Notes under the pieces: model-generated
What the model was told of the DNA's origin: nothing
The model's input: only the letters and a program-made list of their open reading frames with translations
The model's database searches: none
Translations under genes and position numbers: made by a program
In this document: positions 1,484 through 20,566 of the stretch, piece by piece
Layout: each line of letters starts with the position of its first letter
Position numbering within the stretch: position 1 is the stretch's first letter
IMG/VR virus record: IMGVR_UViG_3300030012_004210
Location: 3,340-23,905 of that record
DNA length: 20,566 nucleotides
DNA from: a virus
Direction: 5' to 3' (one strand)

Positions 1484-4400
1484 AAGATATAACTCTTAGA
1501 TTTTTAATCATTGGAGGGAAAGCTTGGTTAGTAGAAGTACCAATCAGTTTAATTCTCAAGGAATTAAATGATGATAAACGATCTACACTAAACTTATATT
1601 CCTTATATTGAGATCTCATTGAGAGTGGAACTAAACTATCTACTTTTGATACTTCATTATCAGTGGTACCATCATTTAAATTAGTGTTAATGACAGAACC
1701 ATTAGGTTGTACATTGTTGTAACCTGGGAATGGAGTAAAGATAGTATCAAGAACATCACCTTTTGGATCTAAAGCGTAGAAAGCTCTAACATCAGCTTGA
1801 TTGTGTATGTAAGCATCTATGTAAAGTTCTATAGATGTTCCTGGATTTCCAAGTTGAATATTCTTGGTTACATAAGAGAAACTATTCTTATCATTTCTCA
1901 CACCTTTAACATCAAAGTCATTGATGTAATCAGTAGTTACTTCATTTACTCTGTTAGTCGTAAATATTATAGAAGAATTATTCAAATCAACTACTGGTGT
2001 GATTCTTGAGTCAATGGTTGATAAATTGAAGTTTGCTGTAAATGATTTATTTTGTGGGAACTCTGTCAAGAAGGTAGTTTCATTGATTTTGGATGCAACA
2101 ATTCTTGGAGAATCGAAAACAGTACTACTATTAATACTCATTGGTTCAGTTCCCTTATCAGTAAATGAAATTTCATTACCAGAAATACTAGTACCACTAA
2201 CTGTTCTAGAAGTAGCACTGATTGATGTTCCGTTTGGTGTGATTGTATTGATGTTTGGTCTAATTTTTTCAAATTGAATATTATACGTGGACCTACCATT
2301 AACACCACCACCTTCAAATTTTTGATTGAAGTGTAGTTCTGGGAAACTTGAAGAACTTGTTCTATTGGTTCCATTCTGAGACATATCAATCTTCACATGA
2401 TAAGAATCGAGAGTTATTGGATTATTAATAGTAACTCTATTTAATTCATGAGTTTTATTAATTCTTCTCAGAGATACTCCATTAAATTCATATTTTTCAA
2501 CTAAATCATTAATACTGAAAGAACCAACTAAACTATTATCAACTCCTCTAGTAATTCCAGTTAAAGTATTTCCAGAAGTTCCAGTGTAAGAAATAATCTC
2601 ATCACCAATTTTTATATAACCTGGATTTGTCGTAGCAACACTTACATTTTCAAATTGAGTCAAATTAGATACATCAGCAACTGATATTGGAGAAGTATCT
2701 GAAATACTATATGATGCGGTTAGAAGTGTTGGGTCAATGTCTCCAACAATGTCACTTAATGTTGCAAGATTCGTCTCCGAATGCATCCCGTGATTTCTAC
2801 AGAAAATCTTGAGATGGAGTCCATCAGTATCAACTCTGATTGGTGATACGGGAACAATTCCACTTCCAAAACTTGCTTCGTGATTTAATGTTGTTGTAAT
2901 ACCACTACTATTCACATAAGTCAATGTATTATTGGCGAGTGTTCCAAACTCACCTTGAACATTGGTAATAATAAGTTCGTTTTCACCAAAAATGTTTGAA
3001 ACGGATAGTCTAATTCCAGTTCCAAGAGTTATAGTTCCCAAAGAACTTGGTGTTACAACATCACCTACTCTATAACCAACTCCACCATTAACAATGGATG
3101 CAGAAGAAACACTTCCATTGTTAACAGTTATATTAGCAGTAGCATTAACACCATTACCCGTAACTGATGTAAGTGCAACATCATTAAATACAAAACTTCC
3201 AGAAGAAGGTGTATAACCAACACCAGCATTTGTGACTGTTAATGCTGATGTTGCGGAACCAGCAAATCCAACAAAATCACCGGTGGCTTGTGTGAGATTT
3301 TGTGTGACAGTGTTTCCTGGTACTAAGTTACTTAAATCGGAATTTACAACAGTTGTTCCAAGACCAACCCTGATTGCATATGGATCAGTAATTGCGGCAT
3401 CTTTTCCAATAAATTCAATATCTTTATTTAAATCTGGATTGAATAGTTGTACATTTCCATTCGAAACAAAATCACATCTAAAGAGTTCGAACTTCAAGTC
3501 TTCATACTGACTTGGTGTCCATGTAGAAGCATTTTGTGATTTAAATAGTGATCCGAGAAGTGGTTGTGTAGATACTAAAGTTTGAGAAGCTTCTGGTTGA
3601 TTAATTGTAGAAATATCAACCTCACCAAGTCTAGAAATCCAAACTGTATATCCAGGTGAATTAGCTAACAATACGATTGCATATTCTCTTCCAGATTCCA
3701 AATAAACTGGGGATTCAAATGTAAACTTTGTAGCGATACTACCATCAACTGATGGTGTAATTTCTTGAGGATTTTTTACTACTCTTGAATACGCTAGAAT
3801 TTTTTTGGAAGGAACTCCTAATTCCATTTCTCTAATATCAAAAGCTACCGGAATATTATCGGTTGGAACTGATTCGAAGAATACATCACAAGAAGAAACA
3901 AAAATTCCAGTTTCGTCATCAACAGTAAATGACTGTGCTAGAGGGTCAAAAAATCTTCCAGTAAGGCCTTCGGTTGGAGGTGTTACTACTTCCGGAGTTC
4001 CAGGAATGACTTCGAAAATCGGTACCTGTTCTCTAGTAACATTTCTGGTAGAAAGTGTTACCTCTTGAGTTGTGTCAAGATCTCCCTGAGAGTAGAAAAT
4101 TTCATCAGCAGCTGTTGTATATGAAGATGATCCTTCAATTTTACTATTAGTTGGGCTACTGGTGAGCCTCATTTTATTTCTACCTGTTGAGAAAGTCGGT
4201 AATGATGTATTTCTAGAATCTGGTACTCTATAACAACCAATTAAGGAACCAACTCTATCAGTTACAAGTCTGAGATTAGATACTGTTGCTATAGCACCAC
4301 TTGTCTCACCTTGTAATGTCATCCCACTCTGAAGATATCCTGAATACTCTGGAGATCCCTCGTCAGCTAAACTAAAAGTATCTACGTTAAGAATTGAAGA

Positions 4401-12233: not shown

Positions 12234-15200
12234 TTAAGTGTAATTTTTAAATTTTAGAGGATTAGATCTTGTAACAACAGCTGATGTGGATATTCCAGCA
12301 TATCCATCACTACCATAGAAATTGAATGAATTCTTTTTCAGTGGTGTGGTTAGTTCAATCTTACCCCAACTAAAGTTTCCAAAGTTTCTATCGGAGGAAA
12401 TTCCACCACTCAAAACCCCAAAACTACTATTATCAAAGGTGAACGTGTTAGAATCAAAAGATATTGTATTAGTATCAAATGATGATGTTGAGTAACCAAC
12501 TATATTTGCAAATACTCTTCTTACGGCCGTATTACCAACACCAATAACTTCACCTTGTTCTGTATAAACGTTGGAAACTTGATATACATTGTCAAGGAAT
12601 GTTGTAGTTATTCCAATAACAGTTCCATCTGTCGATTCAGACACAACAGTTCCTGTTGTAGTAATAGCTACATTTGTATTGAATAGAGTAAAATAATCTC
12701 CGGTAGAAATTCCACTTACTGTGATTCCGGTACCAACATACTTACTATCTCTCATGAAAGAATCAGTAGGAATATAAAAATCAACTATAAGTTTATCTTG
12801 AGCACTTTGTGTAGTTACACCAAATCCTACCAAAGTTCCATAATCACCTTTATAGGAAGTGACTCTAACTTCATTTTCTTTAATAGTACTCTTCTCCTCA
12901 ATTATCACCGATGGTGGGTTAGTTGAAGTGTATCCACTTCCAGGATTTGAAACTGTAATACCGGAGATAGATCCGTTAATGATCGTAGCAACTGCAGAAG
13001 CTCTAAGTTCAGTTCCAAGTCCAACAGGATTGCCAATAATCACCGATGGTGCGGACGTATATCCAGAACCAACATTTGATATGTTAACTGAACTGATGGT
13101 ACCAGATGGAGAAACTGTAGCGGTAGCCAATCCTCCAACTGAAACATCTTGAGAAATAATATCTATCTTTTTATTATTTCCTTCCGCTTCATTTTGTGAA
13201 TTAAATAGAGGTCTTACAGTATCAACATAAATTTCTGTTGACCCTGCACTAACAGACTTAAGAACAAATGATGATGGATATACTAGGGGTTCTTGTTCCT
13301 CTCTATCTTTGCCAATAACTTTACCATCTATAAATCTATCATTAGTTTGTTTGCACCATATCACTGGTCTAGATAAAGTTTTATCATCAGTGACTCCTGG
13401 ACCATAATATGGATTTGTGTTTGCGGTATCAACGGTTAATACATCAGTTACAACCCTTACATCTTGATCCAAATCACTATTTTGATTTAAGATAGGATCA
13501 TTGTCGATATTTAAAGTATCACCTTTTTTGACAGTTGGTAATACATCCCTGAAAATAACATCAATATCATCACCAGAACCTTTATAGAATAGTAATTTGG
13601 AAGTATCTCCACTATTAGGAGCTTCATTAAATTCAATAATACTACTTCCTTTCAATTTAAATGATCTCTCTGGTTCCTGAAGTATGTCATTGATGAAGAT
13701 TAACAATGTTTGAGTGAGATCAATTTTAGATCCTTCTTTCTTAGAAATAGCGAATATATCATTATCCTTTTTCATCTTGAAGGATTTAGTTTTTCCATCA
13801 AATTCGTCATCTATAGTATCAAGAACATCAAATTCACCTATACTCCAACCGTTAAATGAATCATTATAAATTCTATCAATTTCTAATTGGAATTCTTTAA
13901 ATGAAGTTGTACCATCAGTTGGAATTCCCGTAGAACCTCCAACAGGTACGGTTAATATTTCACCATTACCATATCCAAAACCTGGATCATGAATACTAAA
14001 GTTGATTACACTAGAACCCTGACCAACAGTGATATCCACTGTTGCACTTAATCCAGATCCTACAGGAGAGGATGAGCTGTATTGTAGTGGAATGTCCTCA
14101 TATTGTAGGGGATTGTCAAAGACGACCAATGGTGGATTTGTATTTTTATATCCAACTCCTGGATTTGTAATAGCAACTCCAACGATATGACCTCCACTTA
14201 CAGATGCTGTTCCAATAAACTCAATGTTTGGTATTCCGTTACTATAAGTTTGAACTCCAACATTAACTACTGTCTGAACTCCTACTCTATATCCAGAACC
14301 ACTATTACCAATGCTGATAGAAGAAATTGTTCCTGCTACAGATACAACTGCAGTTCCTCCAGCAGAAACTAGAGGTTGATATCCAAATCCTTCAGTTGAA
14401 CCTACTGAAATTATTAATCCACCTAGTGGAAGGCTTGACCTATTTGGATCATATCCTTCAGGAGAACTTTGTGAACCAGTAAATGTTATCGTAGTAATAC
14501 CGGCACTTTCTTCAAGATCATAATCACCATCCTGATTGATGTCTGAGATTCTCTTAGGTTGTTGGAATATTCCATTGATCAAAACAATAGAGTTCCAAGT
14601 AGATATTCCAGATACATTGGAGTTATTAGATTTTAATACAAACGAACTTTGAACACCTGTAAATTGGTCCGAAATATTATCAAAAACATAATTATCTTCA
14701 TAAGTATCACCAGAACCATTTTCAATTCCAGATCGTATGAATGCTCTACCTTGGAAAGTTGAACTAGTTGTTATACCGGTCCAATCAAAATTAGATGGAC
14801 CTGAAGTTGTCGTACTCAGAGGAATTTTTCCATGAGGTGCTTCTGAGAAGTTTAATGTATTATTGATAATATTATAATTACCAACTATTTTAGTTACCAG
14901 TGCACCGGTACTATGACTTGAGGATAATGTTCCCATCCAACCTCTTCTAACATCAACATTCGTATTTCCACCAATACCAACATCCGTAACATAAACAATT
15001 TCGTCATCTATCTTCAAAAGGTCACTAGAAGATATAGAAGTGACCCCACTTATTCCAAATCTAGTGTCAAAAACAATATTTTGACTGAGTAGAGCTGTCA
15101 CACCAGAAGAAACAATAGGTGATTGAATCATATTATCAATTGCAATCAATACTTTAGAGTTTTGATTGGTAGAAGTTAATTTATGAACAGTTCCCACTCC

Positions 15201-18200
15201 AACTGATGTAAAGTCAAAGGTGATTGGATTTGTTGCCAATGCATCTGAAGCAGAACCTGCCAATCTTATTCTAGATTCAGAATCTTTTACAACATATACA
15301 GTTGATGGAATTTTATCAGTAATTCCAATTCCAGAAATATTTGTAGAAGCTATTGAAATTGGAACTGAATTTGGATTTAATCCATTGATAACTGCTTCAT
15401 ATGAAATCTTTTCACCAGTAACAAAATAATTATTATTAAGAACGATCTGATTGTTAGTCAAATCAACAAAAGTGGTACTGGAACCATCAATTTCTCGTTC
15501 AAAAATTTCATTACCATCATGTGTGAGGTCAAAGGTTGTTTTCAGGTCAAGAAGTGATCCAGTGTAAGTACCATTATCACAAATAATTGTTTCACAACCT
15601 AAATCAATATTTTTTGGATGTATGTTATCGTCAAATATTCTGATGGGAATTTGAAGTGATCTTACCTGAACACCAATATTTGCATTTGGTGTATATGTAA
15701 GATTAATATTATTTCCGACAGATGTAATTCCTATAGAACCAAGTGATCCGGATGTTTGAACATTACCATATTCAACATGTGTTTGAATGTTCGAGGAATT
15801 TAATATAACAGACTCAAAGATTTCATATTCATTGTTAGTGGTATCTTTAACTGTGACAATGTTATATGATGCATTAGCAAACCTTTGATCATAAGATGAA
15901 ATCACAACGGCTGACGGAGAACCAGAAGAAGAGATAGCTTTGTAATTCGATTCTAAATCTACTGTACTTAAATTAACAGTTGAAATTCCAGTGGAACTGT
16001 CAGATGTTGCAATAATTGAAACGCTTGATGTTAGTGCAACACCGACATTCGGAGTAAAATCAATCTTAAGATTACCGCTGTTAATGTATGGGAAGAAAGT
16101 ACCAAATCCACTCGAACCATCTGTTACTATGTCACCATAACTTGAGAAGTATGCTGAAGTTCCATCATGAATTACACTCAATTCCACTCCATGATGTTCT
16201 TTGGATGTATTTTCAAGATCGACAAATACCTTCGCAGATCTGTAAGTGGAAGATATTGAAACAACCGTTGTAGTGGTAGCTACTGAAACATTTGTCTGTT
16301 GAGATTTAATATTTACAACATCTCCAATATCTGTAGTCCCTATTCCACTAACACCATTTACACTACTAAAAGAAACTGTAGATACATCATAATTATTATA
16401 TTCTGACTTTATGGGGAAGAAAGTTAAGTTCCATTCTCCATCTGGATTATTTGTTGGTACTAAGTAACCAAAAGATCCTAATTCTGTCACAGTATCAAGA
16501 ATCGCATATTCGTGCATCTGTGCTTGATTTCCGACTTGCATTACGGAAACCATAGATGCATGTCTTTCGTCGGTATAAATTGAATCTTTAACAAATACAA
16601 ATAATTTATTATAATTATTGATTAATGGGAACTTAGATACCGATGTAAATTGTGTTGGTCTAATGTTACTCTGAAATGTAGAACTAATATCATCAATTTT
16701 TAAAACCCTGTTTCCAACAGATTCGAAGAAATCTGACAGTAACCTATTATTGAAGTTGATTTCTGTGGAAACTAAAGTTCCGTCTACGTTTACGGTAGTT
16801 TCAGTAACTTCATCAAAATCATAATAGCAGTTTAAGTCAGCTTCTCCAACAATATTGACTGACAATTCAACATTACTATTTTCTGGTAAAGTCACTGATA
16901 AAGTATCATTATCAACAACACTTTCAACTTGAAGATCTGCAAATTTTTCAAATCCAGCAGTATGGTCGAGAGAACTTACCGGATCATCCCATGTCTGATA
17001 AGGTATTTTAGATTTGAGTGAATATGAGAAGTTTTGATAATATTCATTGTTAGGAATTCTCTGGAAATTGTTATTCAACATACCAGAAATCAACTGCCAA
17101 CCACTAATCACAGTAGCTCCAGAACCAACAATAATTTGAGATTCAAAATTAATTTTTTTCGTAACAGAAGCTTTTGCTGTAGATGTTAAACCTTTAATAA
17201 TGTCACCAGCTAAGAATTCATCAGAAGATTCGACATACAGATATTCTGCTGTGGAGTTCCACCTTCTAGCTATACCAACCTTTGAACCAGAAACTACAGT
17301 TTCACCAACAAGTATTTCATTTGTTTTGAGTATTGGATTAAATACTGGAAAATCATTTTCTAATATTATTCTTCCAGCAGAATTAGAAAAGTCTACATTG
17401 CCCGGTACTTCATTACTAGAAAGATCTTCCTGTAAACTATACTCTACATAAGCTCCAGAACCACCTAAAGCTGTGTTGACACCGGTAAGACCAAATAATT
17501 TATAACCATAATTGGAAGAATCGTATCCCTTTCCAGTAGATCCAATACCTACAGAAAGACCTTCAATGAAAACTTTTGAACCAATACTAAATGGGAAGGT
17601 GTCTCCAGCTCCAAAAGTTTGATCGAGAAATACTCGAACAGTCTTTGAGGAATTTGTATAAGTTACCGTAGAAATTCCTATACCATTGCTGTTTTGTATA
17701 GGAATAATTCTGGGAGATGTGTTATAAATTCCATCCGTATTTTTCAGGATTGTTACTTCACTATCTCCTAAATTGTAGTTTAAATCAACATCAGAAACAA
17801 CTTTGTTTGTGAATCCATCAAGAACTATTAATTTTGGTGCAACTAAGTAATCTTTACCAGAAAAAGTAACTCCAATACTTTCAAATTTGGAGAAAGGATC
17901 TATATTTAAAATTTCTGGTAAGTTTGAATTAACTCTTAATGTATTATCAGTTGGATACGCAAAACCAATCTCATTGAATTTATAATTAGTAATTTGACCA
18001 ATAGTTTCACTATTGGATTCTAAAATAGCACCAACCCCGTCTTTACTTTGTACTGTCGATATTCCTGGTAAAGTTTCATATGAACTTCCACCATTACTGA
18101 CATCAATTCTTGATATTGGTCCAGAAGATGTTAATGAAGTTGTTTCATATGATATGGTTGAATTTGTGGAATTGTAATTTACAACCTTAGGAGATTCTAT

Positions 18201-20566
18201 TACATCATATGTGAAAGTAGATGTTCCAACTCCAGTTACTGTATAATCTCCACTGTATATTGAGTTGATAACATTTATTTGGTTGGGACTATTGACACTT
18301 GTATCAAAAACATTATTTTTGAAAGATGGTAGGATATCAAGATTTATATTGTTAAATTTGTAATACAATAAAGATGGAACAAAATCACTAACACTTAAAG
18401 TTAAACTAGCATCAGAATCAATACCAGGTTTTCCGATCTTCAATACCTCAAATTTTGATGTATTGGGTGATGAAAGAAACTCTGTTAAGAAGTTTTTGTC
18501 TTCATATAAACTTAATTCGAATGCAGAATATACATTTGAATTGTAAACAAAAGCTAATGAGTTATCTGATAGGTCAAATTTTACATTATTATTTCTACTA
18601 ATATTAATTCCTGGATTTATATTTGATAAAGTTCCACCATTTGTACTAGTAATATTTACAAAATTAGGTGATTCTTTTAATAATTCACTTTTTTCTCTAA
18701 CCAATCTAATATCTGTTTGGTTATATGTAATAACATAATACATTTCCTCATTTATCAATCCTCCAGCTGGAGATGATGAAGTATGAATTACCCTATCACC
18801 AGTTTTAAAATCATTTTTAGAGAATTTAATAGTATTATTCGTGATGTCAACGTCACCGGATACAAAAGTTTTTGGATTAAATACTATCCTTCTGTTATGA
18901 TTATTATATTTTACTTGAATGGTTATCAAATCTCTAGGTTTCAAATCAATTGAAACTTTATCTCTAGCTCTTAATAAGTGTGGTGATGATGTAGTTACTG
19001 TAATTATGTTCCTATCAACAGATCCACTTAGAACATTACTCAAGTTTGTTTTAAAGCTATGAGTAGTTCCAGCTCCAACTCCAGTAAAATAGAAGAGACC
19101 TTTACTATCAGTACCTATACCAACATAAGATCCAGTGGTTCCTATTCCGATTCTATTAGAACTTATTCCAATATGATTATCGGTGATATTAGCAACAAAC
19201 AGTGTTGTGTAATCTGTCAGATTTCTATACGAAGAAGAATTATTCCCGTCCCAGATTTGAATAGAGGTTCCTCCGTTTGTGGAGTAAGTAATCTGATCAT
19301 TGAGGTTTAATCCGTGATTTGGATAGTAAATCCTCTGTGGATTCGTAAAGATTTGGGTAATTCCAACACCTGGATTGGAGAATGTAATAGTATTACCGAT
19401 ACCAGTTCCAAGTGTAGTTCCAATTCCAACAGACTCTGAGGGATCAAAATAAAGTTCTCTATTAACTTTAAATACTCTATTAGATTTTACTGAATCTGCA
19501 AGAAAATTGAATTTAGAACTTTCCTCAAAAATCTTTGTAGATCTCGTATGTGCACTGCCAACTGTTGAATTTTGAGATCTCAATACACGTAATCTGGAAT
19601 TAATTTTATCAATATTTAATACTTTGACTTTCTCAGTTCCAATGGAGAGAATATCATTTTCTCTTATAGTTGGATACTCTAAAGGTCCCAAAACATTTAG
19701 ATAAGCAACAGATCCAGTTGCTCCTGCTGTACCAATTCCTGATGTTAAAGTCCAACTAACAGTACTTACTCCTACACTATAAGAACCATCAAACCCTTCA
19801 TAATAACTAGAAAGTCCAACAATTTGAACAGTATCTCTAGAATTTAAATTGTGGGGGGATGTGGTAAAACCAATGAATAAATTTGATAAAGGTAAAAATT
19901 CAACATCTTCTAAAGATAAAGTGCTCGCGGTTACATCACTAACTGTTTTGCCCTTAATTCTAGAAACTTTGGCCGAAGCATCAAAACCCTGGGTATTCGT
20001 ATTGTCAAATACAATATTGTCATTGAGTTTATATCCGTCACCACCGGATACAATTTCAACATTTTCAACTGAACCTCTTAAAGATGAAGTTACTTCTAAA
20101 GATTGTTTCTTAACCCTATCAGAGTCAAAAATATAATCATATCGACTATTTTGTTTTCTGAGGTGATATGGTACAGTATATCTCAACCAACTATCACTTT
20201 GTAAACTAAAATCTTTTTGATTTGAAATTCCTTTGAAATTAAAGTCAATCGGTGTTGACTTATAAGTATCACCGATTAGATACGGAAAAACTGGTCTTTT
20301 ATACTTACTAAAGGGTCCGTCACTATCAACTTCAGATTCTATAGTTGCAAAGTATGCATAAACACCATCAGGGTAATCCGGAGTTACACAATATCTTCCA
20401 TTACTCGCATCCAAATCTCCATTGCCGACATATTCAAAGTCTTCAACGAAAAATCCTGATTCAAAATTAGGTCTATCCAACTTATCAGATTTGTTAATAT
20501 ATCCAGATTTCATTTCACGAATGACTCCAGTACCATCTTTATTTGAATATCCATATGGACCATAAA
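12234..20566 (-). CDS. Giant YHYH-domain virion structural protein, N-terminus beyond window
   Basis: At least 2,776 residues; the frame stays open to the right edge, so the ATG at 20513 is internal. The first codons read YGPYGYSNKDGTGVIREMKS, followed by GDLDASNGRYCVTPDYPDGV and YAYFATIE, which match the second half of the YHYH domain (PF14240). The rest is a string of beta-type modules. It includes three copies of a 'TGD...YYV...I.L' module (about 19045-19360, 18605-18860 and 15165-15485), three 'V.IN..QQP' modules (14975-15160, 14480-14660 and 13570-13800) and many GxGY turns. It also has a DINQDGDYDLEE loop resembling an EF-hand. There is no signal peptide or membrane segment in the visible part. 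It lies directly upstream of the fibre and gp8 genes, where T4 has gp7, but I see no gp7 similarity. It is probably a baseplate-associated or host-contact protein. The stop is TAA at 12236-12234. Confidence 0.88.
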   Translation of the reverse strand, partial: YGPYGYSNKDGTGVIREMKSGYINKSDKLDRPNFESGFFVEDFEYVGNGDLDASNGRYCVTPDYPDGVYAYFATIESEVDSDGPFSKYKRPVFPYLIGDTYKSTPIDFNFKGISNQKDFSLQSDSWLRYTVPYHLRKQNSRYDYIFDSDRVKKQSLEVTSSLRGSVENVEIVSGGDGYKLNDNIVFDNTNTQGFDASAKVSRIKGKTVSDVTASTLSLEDVEFLPLSNLFIGFTTSPHNLNSRDTVQIVGLSSYYEGFDGSYSVGVSTVSWTLTSGIGTAGATGSVAYLNVLGPLEYPTIRENDILSIGTEKVKVLNIDKINSRLRVLRSQNSTVGSAHTRSTKIFEESSKFNFLADSVKSNRVFKVNRELYFDPSESVGIGTTLGTGIGNTITFSNPGVGITQIFTNPQRIYYPNHGLNLNDQITYSTNGGTSIQIWDGNNSSSYRNLTDYTTLFVANITDNHIGISSNRIGIGTTGSYVGIGTDSKGLFYFTGVGAGTTHSFKTNLSNVLSGSVDRNIITVTTSSPHLLRARDKVSIDLKPRDLITIQVKYNNHNRRIVFNPKTFVSGDVDITNNTIKFSKNDFKTGDRVIHTSSSPAGGLINEEMYYVITYNQTDIRLVREKSELLKESPNFVNITSTNGGTLSNINPGINISRNNNVKFDLSDNSLAFVYNSNVYSAFELSLYEDKNFLTEFLSSPNTSKFEVLKIGKPGIDSDASLTLSVSDFVPSLLYYKFNNINLDILPSFKNNVFDTSVNSPNQINVINSIYSGDYTVTGVGTSTFTYDVIESPKVVNYNSTNSTISYETTSLTSSGPISRIDVSNGGSSYETLPGISTVQSKDGVGAILESNSETIGQITNYKFNEIGFAYPTDNTLRVNSNLPEILNIDPFSKFESIGVTFSGKDYLVAPKLIVLDGFTNKVVSDVDLNYNLGDSEVTILKNTDGIYNTSPRIIPIQNSNGIGISTVTYTNSSKTVRVFLDQTFGAGDTFPFSIGSKVFIEGLSVGIGSTGKGYDSSNYGYKLFGLTGVNTALGGSGAYVEYSLQEDLSSNEVPGNVDFSNSAGRIILENDFPVFNPILKTNEILVGETVVSGSKVGIARRWNSTAEYLYVESSDEFLAGDIIKGLTSTAKASVTKKINFESQIIVGSGATVISGWQLISGMLNNNFQRIPNNEYYQNFSYSLKSKIPYQTWDDPVSSLDHTAGFEKFADLQVESVVDNDTLSVTLPENSNVELSVNIVGEADLNCYYDFDEVTETTVNVDGTLVSTEINFNNRLLSDFFESVGNRVLKIDDISSTFQSNIRPTQFTSVSKFPLINNYNKLFVFVKDSIYTDERHASMVSVMQVGNQAQMHEYAILDTVTELGSFGYLVPTNNPDGEWNLTFFPIKSEYNNYDVSTVSFSSVNGVSGIGTTDIGDVVNIKSQQTNVSVATTTTVVSISSTYRSAKVFVDLENTSKEHHGVELSVIHDGTSAYFSSYGDIVTDGSSGFGTFFPYINSGNLKIDFTPNVGVALTSSVSIIATSDSSTGISTVNLSTVDLESNYKAISSSGSPSAVVISSYDQRFANASYNIVTVKDTTNNEYEIFESVILNSSNIQTHVEYGNVQTSGSLGSIGITSVGNNINLTYTPNANIGVQVRSLQIPIRIFDDNIHPKNIDLGCETIICDNGTYTGSLLDLKTTFDLTHDGNEIFEREIDGSSTTFVDLTNNQIVLNNNYFVTGEKISYEAVINGLNPNSVPISIASTNISGIGITDKIPSTVYVVKDSESRIRLAGSASDALATNPITFDFTSVGVGTVHKLTSTNQNSKVLIAIDNMIQSPIVSSGVTALLSQNIVFDTRFGISGVTSISSSDLLKIDDEIVYVTDVGIGGNTNVDVRRGWMGTLSSSHSTGALVTKIVGNYNIINNTLNFSEAPHGKIPLSTTTSGPSNFDWTGITTSSTFQGRAFIRSGIENGSGDTYEDNYVFDNISDQFTGVQSSFVLKSNNSNVSGISTWNSIVLINGIFQQPKRISDINQDGDYDLEESAGITTITFTGSQSSPEGYDPNRSSLPLGGLIISVGSTEGFGYQPLVSAGGTAVVSVAGTISSISIGNSGSGYRVGVQTVVNVGVQTYSNGIPNIEFIGTASVSGGHIVGVAITNPGVGYKNTNPPLVVFDNPLQYEDIPLQYSSSSPVGSGLSATVDITVGQGSSVINFSIHDPGFGYGNGEILTVPVGGSTGIPTDGTTSFKEFQLEIDRIYNDSFNGWSIGEFDVLDTIDDEFDGKTKSFKMKKDNDIFAISKKEGSKIDLTQTLLIFINDILQEPERSFKLKGSSIIEFNEAPNSGDTSKLLFYKGSGDDIDVIFRDVLPTVKKGDTLNIDNDPILNQNSDLDQDVRVVTDVLTVDTANTNPYYGPGVTDDKTLSRPVIWCKQTNDRFIDGKVIGKDREEQEPLVYPSSFVLKSVSAGSTEIYVDTVRPLFNSQNEAEGNNKKIDIISQDVSVGGLATATVSPSGTISSVNISNVGSGYTSAPSVIIGNPVGLGTELRASAVATIINGSISGITVSNPGSGYTSTNPPSVIIEEKSTIKENEVRVTSYKGDYGTLVGFGVTTQSAQDKLIVDFYIPTDSFMRDSKYVGTGITVSGISTGDYFTLFNTNVAITTTGTVVSESTDGTVIGITTTFLDNVYQVSNVYTEQGEVIGVGNTAVRRVFANIVGYSTSSFDTNTISFDSNTFTFDNSSFGVLSGGISSDRNFGNFSWGKIELTTPLKKNSFNFYGSDGYAGISTSAVVTRSNPLKFKNYT
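12885..14330 (-). repeat. Cluster of GxGY beta-module repeats in the YHYH-type giant
   Basis: Five glycine-rich turns of one type occur here, in order of translation: SISIGNSGSGYRVG (about 14285-14330), VAITNPGVGYKNTNPPLVVF (about 14115-14195), INFSIHDPGFGYGNGEI (about 13945-14010), VNISNVGSGYTSAPSVIIGN (about 13015-13090) and TVSNPGSGYTSTNPPSVIIE (about 12885-12965). Two lie close together, separated by about 40 residues. The same turn is found in gp8 and in the DUF4815 giant. Confidence 0.75.

Follow-up and report, generated by a model that had tools for sequence, protein, structure and literature searches.

A predicted beta-barrel module repeated at dispersed positions in the putative giant baseplate wedge protein of a T4-like cyanophage

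In passages of PMC3004832, gp7 of phage T4 is described as monomeric, with a mass of 119 kDa and three domains joined by linkers, and as lying at the periphery of the baseplate. According to excerpts of PMC12632334, polysialic acid binds at three sites of the phage K1F endosialidase, of which the barrel is one; the barrel is also called a hotspot of host discrimination, though it is largely permissive to substitution. Phage tail proteins with repeated beta modules are a known kind, and the giant protein examined here, P0001, adds a case. It is encoded in a 20566-base stretch of DNA (the window), the final part of a 23905-base viral record (IMG/VR IMGVR_UViG_3300030012_004210). The window's large genes are on the minus strand and form a T4-like cyanophage tail and neck set. 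Three segments of P0001 are read here as copies M4 to M6 of a six-copy beta-barrel module (module A) in a giant baseplate wedge protein of the Kyanoviridae type, with a beaded arm as the working model, and we put the probability of this reading at about 0.62.

P0001 (positions 12234–20566, minus strand) comprises 2776 codons and represents the C-terminal part of the baseplate wedge 'gp7' of a T4-like marine cyanophage, the 5′ end having been lost at the contig end. The frame is still open at the last base of the record (G000 base 23905), and because it runs off the contig the true start of the gene very probably lies elsewhere than at the ATG at 20513. P0001 matched phrog_2885 ('baseplate wedge subunit') with an E-value of 0, the best stretch being residues 1–2090. 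In a tblastn search 456 phage records, mostly of Synechococcus and Prochlorococcus phages, matched P0001, and in 74 of them a single place covered at least 80 % of the query. The twelve top rows had 40–45 % identity across 94–100 % of P0001, and the S-B05 giant was 44.6 % identical across 100 % of the query. In full-length relatives the protein starts approximately 1270–1330 residues upstream of the start of P0001, and relatives with frames of more than 3900 residues are 3908–4776 residues long, most of them about 4000–4100. Judged by these alignments, P0001, which a preliminary description of the window had called a YHYH-type giant, makes up roughly two thirds, counted from the C-terminus, of the protein that carries the annotation gp7 or 'baseplate wedge initiator'.

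The preliminary description had proposed three diverged copies of a module in this frame, and all three were recovered where it had placed them, with refined boundaries. Copy 1 (slot M4), which has a longer insert, is at 19059–19352, copy 2 (M5) at 18630–18851 and copy 3 (M6) at 15183–15467, all on the minus strand, corresponding to P0001 residues 388–485, 555–628 and 1683–1777. The motifs it named are also present, GVGAGTTHSF in copy 1 and SVGVGTVHKL in copy 3. Raw BLOSUM62 comparison of copies 2 and 3 gave a score of 78 that none of 1000 shuffles reached, but the scores involving copy 1 were weak, being marginal against copy 3 (45, reached by 5.1 % of shuffles) and not significant against copy 2 (36, 22 %). 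When profiles were built from the window and 12 annotated phage homologues (effective number of sequences about 3.7, with S-B05 and S-B43 close to each other), hhalign probabilities were 96.6 % for copies 1 and 2, 97.8 % for copies 1 and 3 and 98.2 % for copies 2 and 3, and the maximum among 30 column-shuffled controls per pair was 2.7 %. The internal similarity is therefore significant, and the profiles and the shared reference fold agree with the earlier view that the layout has been retained while the sequences diverged.

High hhalign scores among 68 sliding segments of P0001 were concentrated around the three copies, with weaker values for residues 281–385 (70 % against copy 3), 161–265 (22 %) and 1441–1585 (20–24 %). 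An iterated module-family hidden Markov model (HMM) found M4, M5 and M6 as the only places at E < 1 in the giant frame of the window (E 1.1e-16, 2.2e-20 and 3.1e-18, respectively). These E-values, like those of the other module families below, are not independent, as the window's own or orthologous copies helped to build the HMMs. The search covered 2089 frames of at least 80 residues from loci L001–L012 and L016–L095 and the window, L013–L015 being omitted as duplicates because they are parts of the window's own record, and the same frames reversed gave zero matches. The shuffles, the sliding segments and the reversed decoys rule out a chance or low-complexity origin of the likeness, and the comparisons indicate that one and the same module is present in all three segments. 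The H of an HGF..G motif is the sole nearly invariant position across 22 module A copies, and no dedicated Pfam or NCBIfam model for the module was found at the thresholds used.

The frame running off the contig and three more copies upstream in full-length relatives lay beyond the view of the preliminary description. In a sample of 80 IMG/VR relatives and the fetched phages, 46 of the 47 frames longer than 3900 residues carry six module A copies (M1–M6) at fixed slots, and the remaining one, at a P-SSM2 locus without the gene start, carries five. Several loci are near-identical, so that there are 38–41 distinct sequences per slot among 46–47. The gaps between successive copies in the 46 frames are 158–187, 34–38, 642–724, 69–84 and 1050–1094 residues. 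The window holds M4–M6 with matching spacing; M1–M3, observed in the relatives only, are expected beyond the contig end. Slot-against-slot hhalign probabilities were at least 88 % for 14 of the 15 pairs. On a tree of 68 rows, which has few columns and many open forks, M1, M2, M3, M4 and M6 each fall on one side of a branch, and M5 is unresolved because the S-SM2 M5 copy sits in a weak fork. The slot-wise groups, together with the presence of the same slots across the relatives, imply that the copying predates the divergence of these phages. The module A copies are ancient and scattered along the chain, not tandem. The suggestion that the giant grew by tandem duplication was thus right about internal repetition, but for module A the tandem part is rejected by the spacing (34–1094 residues between copies at fixed slots) and by the slot-wise clades; a true tandem array is found for another module, module C.

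Module A is found outside the giant as well. All 12 phage records searched, which had been chosen for matching P0001 or the module, carry it, with six matches in the giant frame in eight records. The giant frames of P-SSM2 and S-B05 have seven matches each, one of those in S-B05 being partial, while that of ACG-2014f has five and that of P-HM1 three. An extra copy is present in ten of the 12, in another frame of 1639–2166 residues, annotated 'fiber' in S-SM2, the one that was checked, and three have a copy in a frame of 379–479 residues. The module also occurs in the 'tail fiber' proteins of P-HM1 and Sinorhizobium phage phiLM21 and in a large protein of Actinomycetia phage DSL-LC01. P-HM1 has two different large genes under the name gp7 (L108 1130–14470 and 25325–32602), each with module A in its frame. 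Among the 2089 frames searched with the module HMM, those of less than 2000 residues with a match at E < 0.01 were in L021 (two frames) and L063 only; both loci had been fetched for the giant, and these frames look like pieces of it. Two plasmid-encoded bacterial proteins (LEPR-XLL and LamG-like) match weakly (E 1e-3 and 4e-4). A single-sequence scan of genome contigs for cellular examples gave 100 pattern matches and no relative, so the cellular range of the module rests on these two weak plasmid matches.

Structure prediction of the segments had been proposed as a check on whether they superpose, and an indirect answer was obtained. AlphaFold models were made of P0001 residues 345–655 (M4–M5; 55 sequences, predicted local distance difference test (pLDDT) 81.2, predicted template modelling score (pTM) 0.49) and 1575–1870 (M6; 50 sequences, pLDDT 75.6, pTM 0.48). 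In VIA-align comparisons, the best-ranked match for M4 was yeast Uba1 residues 179–261 (Z 7.5, 2.8 Å, 77 residues), and M4 also aligned with endosialidase structures at Z 5.2–6.7, including phi92 endosialidase residues 255–340 (Z 6.7, 2.7 Å, 78 residues). M5 aligned with UBA6 residues 206–292 (Z 6.0, 4.7 Å, 81 residues) and 212–292 (Z 5.9, 2.5 Å, 74 residues) and with a T1 tail tube protein (Z 5.9, 2.8 Å, 77 residues). For M6, Uba1 179–261 was again best-ranked (Z 6.0, 3.4 Å, 76 residues), followed by UBA6 212–292 (Z 6.0, 3.0 Å, 74 residues) and phi92 endosialidase 255–339 (Z 5.6, 3.2 Å, 76 residues). All three modelled copies thus align to the same barrel, the FCCH domain of ubiquitin E1 enzymes, though with Z below 8 the support is moderate, and the predicted fold class of module A is an FCCH/endosialidase-type barrel. 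Against a viral library, the M4–M5 model matched two further segments of the Bellamy giant (A0A222YXC4_1, E 2.5e-8, and A0A222YXC4_3, E 7.7e-5), with a root mean square deviation (rmsd) of 23–26 Å when all the aligned domains are taken together. It also matched several proteins with tail fibre or spike in their names. Foldseek rows for astrovirus capsid, hepatitis E capsid, beta-glucuronidase and CDTb were discarded as weak, most having an rmsd above 14 Å, and ATP synthase matches of the M6-region model belong to a neighbouring module, module D, rather than to module A.

Sequence profiles support the link to the endosialidase barrel independently of the predicted fold. An hmmsearch of PDB sequences with module A placed phi92 endosialidase (4hiz) at the top (E 0.026). 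The pooled module A profile matched an endosialidase-type barrel alignment at 93.8 % over 54 columns around HGL.VGD.V.F, compared with at most 0.7 % in 40 shuffles. That alignment held eight sequences, namely the phi92, K1H, K1F and K1E endosialidases or tailspikes and four other phage proteins matching the phi92 segment. Single slots gave 2–84 %. When 45 segments of the giant were compared with the same alignment, those of M4 and M5 were best (92.6 and 91.9 %), followed by residues 481–576 (75 %), 121–216 (70 %) and 181–276 (35 %), and M6's own segment reached only 2.8 %. The Pfam barrel model PF12195 matched 2 of the 22 module copies (best E 0.021, below the curated cut-off) and had no match at E ≤ 1 in P0001. 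No copy of the 22 matched the Pfam FCCH family, for which we take Pfam to hold a model, at E ≤ 5, though HMMER filters drop most weak matches. A segment of the annotated major capsid protein of cyanophage P-SSP2 (L104 1501–1638) shares 50 % identity with the barrel of phi92 endosialidase across 46 residues and has a weak module A HMM match (E 6e-4).

The proposed placement of the giant in the baseplate wedge comes from its genomic position and from its N-terminus. It lies directly between the gp6 and gp8 genes in S-SM2 and P-HM1, and in S-B05 and the window there is one extra gene between the giant and gp8. The gp6 side of the window's giant lies beyond the contig end, and the order in annotated relatives is gp25-gp6-giant, then gp8. 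Of 21 relatives, 17 show a resemblance to the Pfam Baseplate_wedge family in their N-terminal 35 residues, with a best E of 4.7e-6. An N-terminal profile searched against PDB retrieved only nitric oxide synthase chains (E 1.2 or more), which were taken as chance. The equivalence to T4 gp7 therefore rests mainly on gene order, and 'gp7' is best regarded as a label of position.

Several results weigh against the reading of M4–M6 as barrels of a beaded wedge arm. The AlphaFold models consist of separate domains whose relative placement is not predicted (pTM 0.48–0.49), and Foldseek used alone found no PDB match below E 0.03 for either model. The VIA-align Z scores for module A, all below 8, may reflect a common arrangement only, and no endosialidase was among the M5 matches listed, which show the best chain per entry, so that further M5 matches may be hidden. 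Matches of M1 (10 %), M2 (2 %) and M6 (11 %) to the endosialidase-type barrel are weak, while residues 121–216, outside module A, reach 70 %. Slots M2 and M4 matched each other at only 46.8 %, and the modules (mean pairwise identity 0.44–0.51) are slightly less conserved than the whole protein (0.51; YHYH domain 0.63), which singles out no function. On the side of the wedge, the resemblance to Baseplate_wedge falls short of the curated cut-off in both cases for which bit scores are shown, S-B05 has no such match at E ≤ 1, and neither P0001 nor the full-length L019 matched a PDB sequence at E ≤ 1, although T4 gp7 is presumably among the solved chains. The cyanomyophages are also said, in a part of PMC7029224, to be without T4 gp7 and to have VrlC in its place.

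Three other explanations were weighed against these data. In place of common descent, the likeness might reflect convergence, with simple strands and glycine turns arising independently in a protein rich in beta structure. Convergence would suit the non-significant raw scores with copy 1 and the abundance of G, S, T, V and I that the eye notes throughout the protein. It is largely refuted by the profile comparison and the HMM and decoy results, since the probabilities between copies stand far above those of the shuffles and cluster at three places, reversed decoys gave no match, and the motifs occur in order with a predicted fold in common; we consider it very improbable. A possible, though doubtful, alternative is that the giant is a separate fibre-like or envelope-facing protein that lies between gp6 and gp8, and that VrlC, the annotation of the gene at the position of P0002 in S-SM2 and P-HM1, fills the gp7 role. 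The lack of a sequence match to a solved structure and the replacement of T4 gp7 by VrlC reported in PMC7029224 would fit, as would the listing of gp7 under the non-cyanophage core in an excerpt of PMC3037559 and a module common to the giant and fibre proteins, whereas the N-terminal resemblance to Baseplate_wedge and the conserved gene order speak for a wedge protein, as does the PHROG label, which is a label and not a test.

It is similarly tentative that the barrels are functional glycan binders, making the giant chiefly a receptor-binding or envelope-engaging protein with sugar sites and a YHYH hydrolase, not a scaffold. This would draw on analogy with the K1F barrel, which binds polysialic acid and discriminates between hosts, on the relationship of module A to the endosialidase barrel by fold and profile, and on its presence in phage fibre proteins. 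However, the nearly invariant H need not be a ligand site, the modules are not hypervariable, and the K1F barrel itself tolerates most substitutions. Glycan binding by module A is plausible by analogy but speculative. The stronger proposal, of a baseplate arm that grips glycans multivalently through six barrels of endosialidase-barrel stock around a YHYH hydrolase domain, appears distinctly unlikely. If it were true, and if there were six giants per baseplate as for T4 gp7, each virion would carry approximately 36 weak sugar sites, and adsorption of T4-like cyanophages would be determined by proteins of the baseplate in addition to the tips of the fibres.

We return to the beaded baseplate arm, which is the most likely role of the giant. 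The K1F barrel, the presence of the module in fibre proteins and the peripheral position of T4 gp7 together lead us to view the giant as a wedge arm of extended form, possibly with weak sugar grips. The homology of the copies, their fixed slots, the protein family and the gene neighbourhood are established and the fold class is predicted, whereas we infer the baseplate location, elongated shape and spacer or docking role. The N-terminus would anchor the chain in the baseplate wedge beside gp6 and gp8, and the chain would then extend outwards, its small beta domains (modules A–E) following one another like beads, with a central YHYH domain. In this model the module A barrels would act as rigid spacers to which partners from the fibres or the baseplate dock, and they may in addition bind glycans of the host envelope in a weak, multivalent manner. 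The preliminary description had suggested a long flexible or elongated appendage rather than a globular enzyme. The giant is a many-domain beta-rich protein and may well be elongated; that it is a long flexible appendage is no more than a possibility, and the models show separate domains of uncertain relative placement. It may be an enzyme, as the YHYH domain is a predicted metal-dependent hydrolase according to a part of PMC7824862.

The giant contains at least five families of repeated modules, module A among them, as determined from a window-HMM scan of full-length relatives and family HMMs. The C-terminal part of the YHYH domain (PF14240) is at 20334–20507 (Pfam E 4.1e-11, profile positions 127–184 of 193), and the domain is more complete in the relative L019 (residues 1228–1334). 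It and all the following copies are on the minus strand. Module C, absent from the preliminary description, forms three tandem copies between M5 and M6 at 15600–16661 (16329–16661, 15969–16286 and 15600–15926; P0001 residues 1285–1395, 1410–1515 and 1530–1638), with a pitch of about 120–125 residues and family HMM E-values of 9e-27 to 1e-28. Of 80 sequences, as many as 67 have matches of one copy's HMM to the other copies.

Module B (GSGYT type) has three strong copies, at 17928–18149, 14124–14375 and 12906–13139 (cross matches; family HMM E 1e-17 to 8e-19), and a weak fourth at 19926–20093 (E 0.002). It also matches residues 205–295 of gp8 (P0003; E 8e-10) and underlies the phrog_460 (head closure) matches in the giant and gp8. 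Two more matches to the GSGYT region of the giant are elsewhere on the same contig (G000:C1:2402–2884, outside the window). Module D has one copy of an IG.EKVKV type at 19488–19697 (cross matches; E 2.8e-21) and one of an IDDEIVYV type at 14844–15053 (E 5.5e-26). The second aligns with residues 479–550 of the JBD30 baseplate chain 8rk3_b (Z 8.3, 2.1 Å, 66 aligned) and, also at Z 8.3, with residues 62–138 of chain 9in6_M in a phage VP1 capsid entry, a value that exceeds every module A structure match. Module E has two copies, at 14529–14702 and 13641–13841 (cross matches; E 3e-20 and 2e-24). From these repeats, duplication is a general theme in the giant, in which the copies first described are interspersed, not tandem.

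The other products encoded on the minus strand are gp8 (P0003), a gp9/10-type connector (P0004, 10659–12206), a DUF4815 giant (P0002, 1476–9050; phrog_358), a head-tail adaptor (P0005) and a small virion protein (P0006). The module A HMM had no match at E < 0.01 in gp8, P0002 or P0004, among the other frames of the loci searched. By eye, the YIKIGDEIISYTG stretch of P0002 resembles module D, but the module D HMM gave no match at E < 0.01. The C-terminal 110 residues of P0004 have the look of a cupredoxin (small copper-protein), with sub-threshold matches to amicyanin (E 0.25) and halocyanin (E 0.52).

No description of these repeats was found in the excerpts of the cyanophage baseplate and gp7 literature, which is not proof of absence from print, and none of the FCCH papers listed concerned phage tails judging by title and abstract. 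The mosaic structure of the giant, with five or more kinds of repeated beta module, provides a domain map for cryo-EM density and specific domains for host-binding tests, one module resembling both a known sugar-binding barrel and modules of tail fibres.

Among known systems, the likeness to the phage endosialidase barrel (phi92 4hiz; K1F/endoNF 3gvk, 3ju4 and 1v0e; PF12195) consists of the predicted fold of M4 and M6 and the pooled profile, and the endosialidases differ in their sialidase propeller, which Pfam did not find in the giant. The E1 FCCH domains of Uba1 and UBA6 resemble the predicted fold of all copies over approximately 73–84 residues, mostly at 2.5–3.7 Å, a likeness of fold only, with no sequence-level family match and no E1 context. 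The fibre and bacterial surface-type carriers have the same module by HMM or tblastn but differ in architecture, in partner domains and in copy number (one to about six). T4 gp7, which PMC3004832 likewise describes as a peripheral baseplate monomer of several domains, shares the gene-order place and the proposed wedge role; the giant is about four times as long and has no detectable sequence similarity to solved structures. The window protein belongs with the Kyanoviridae 'gp7' giants of S-B05, Bellamy, S-SM2 and P-TIM68 (phrog_2885). Apart from being a fragment, the window protein showed nothing distinctive against them, and they carry the same modules in the same slots.

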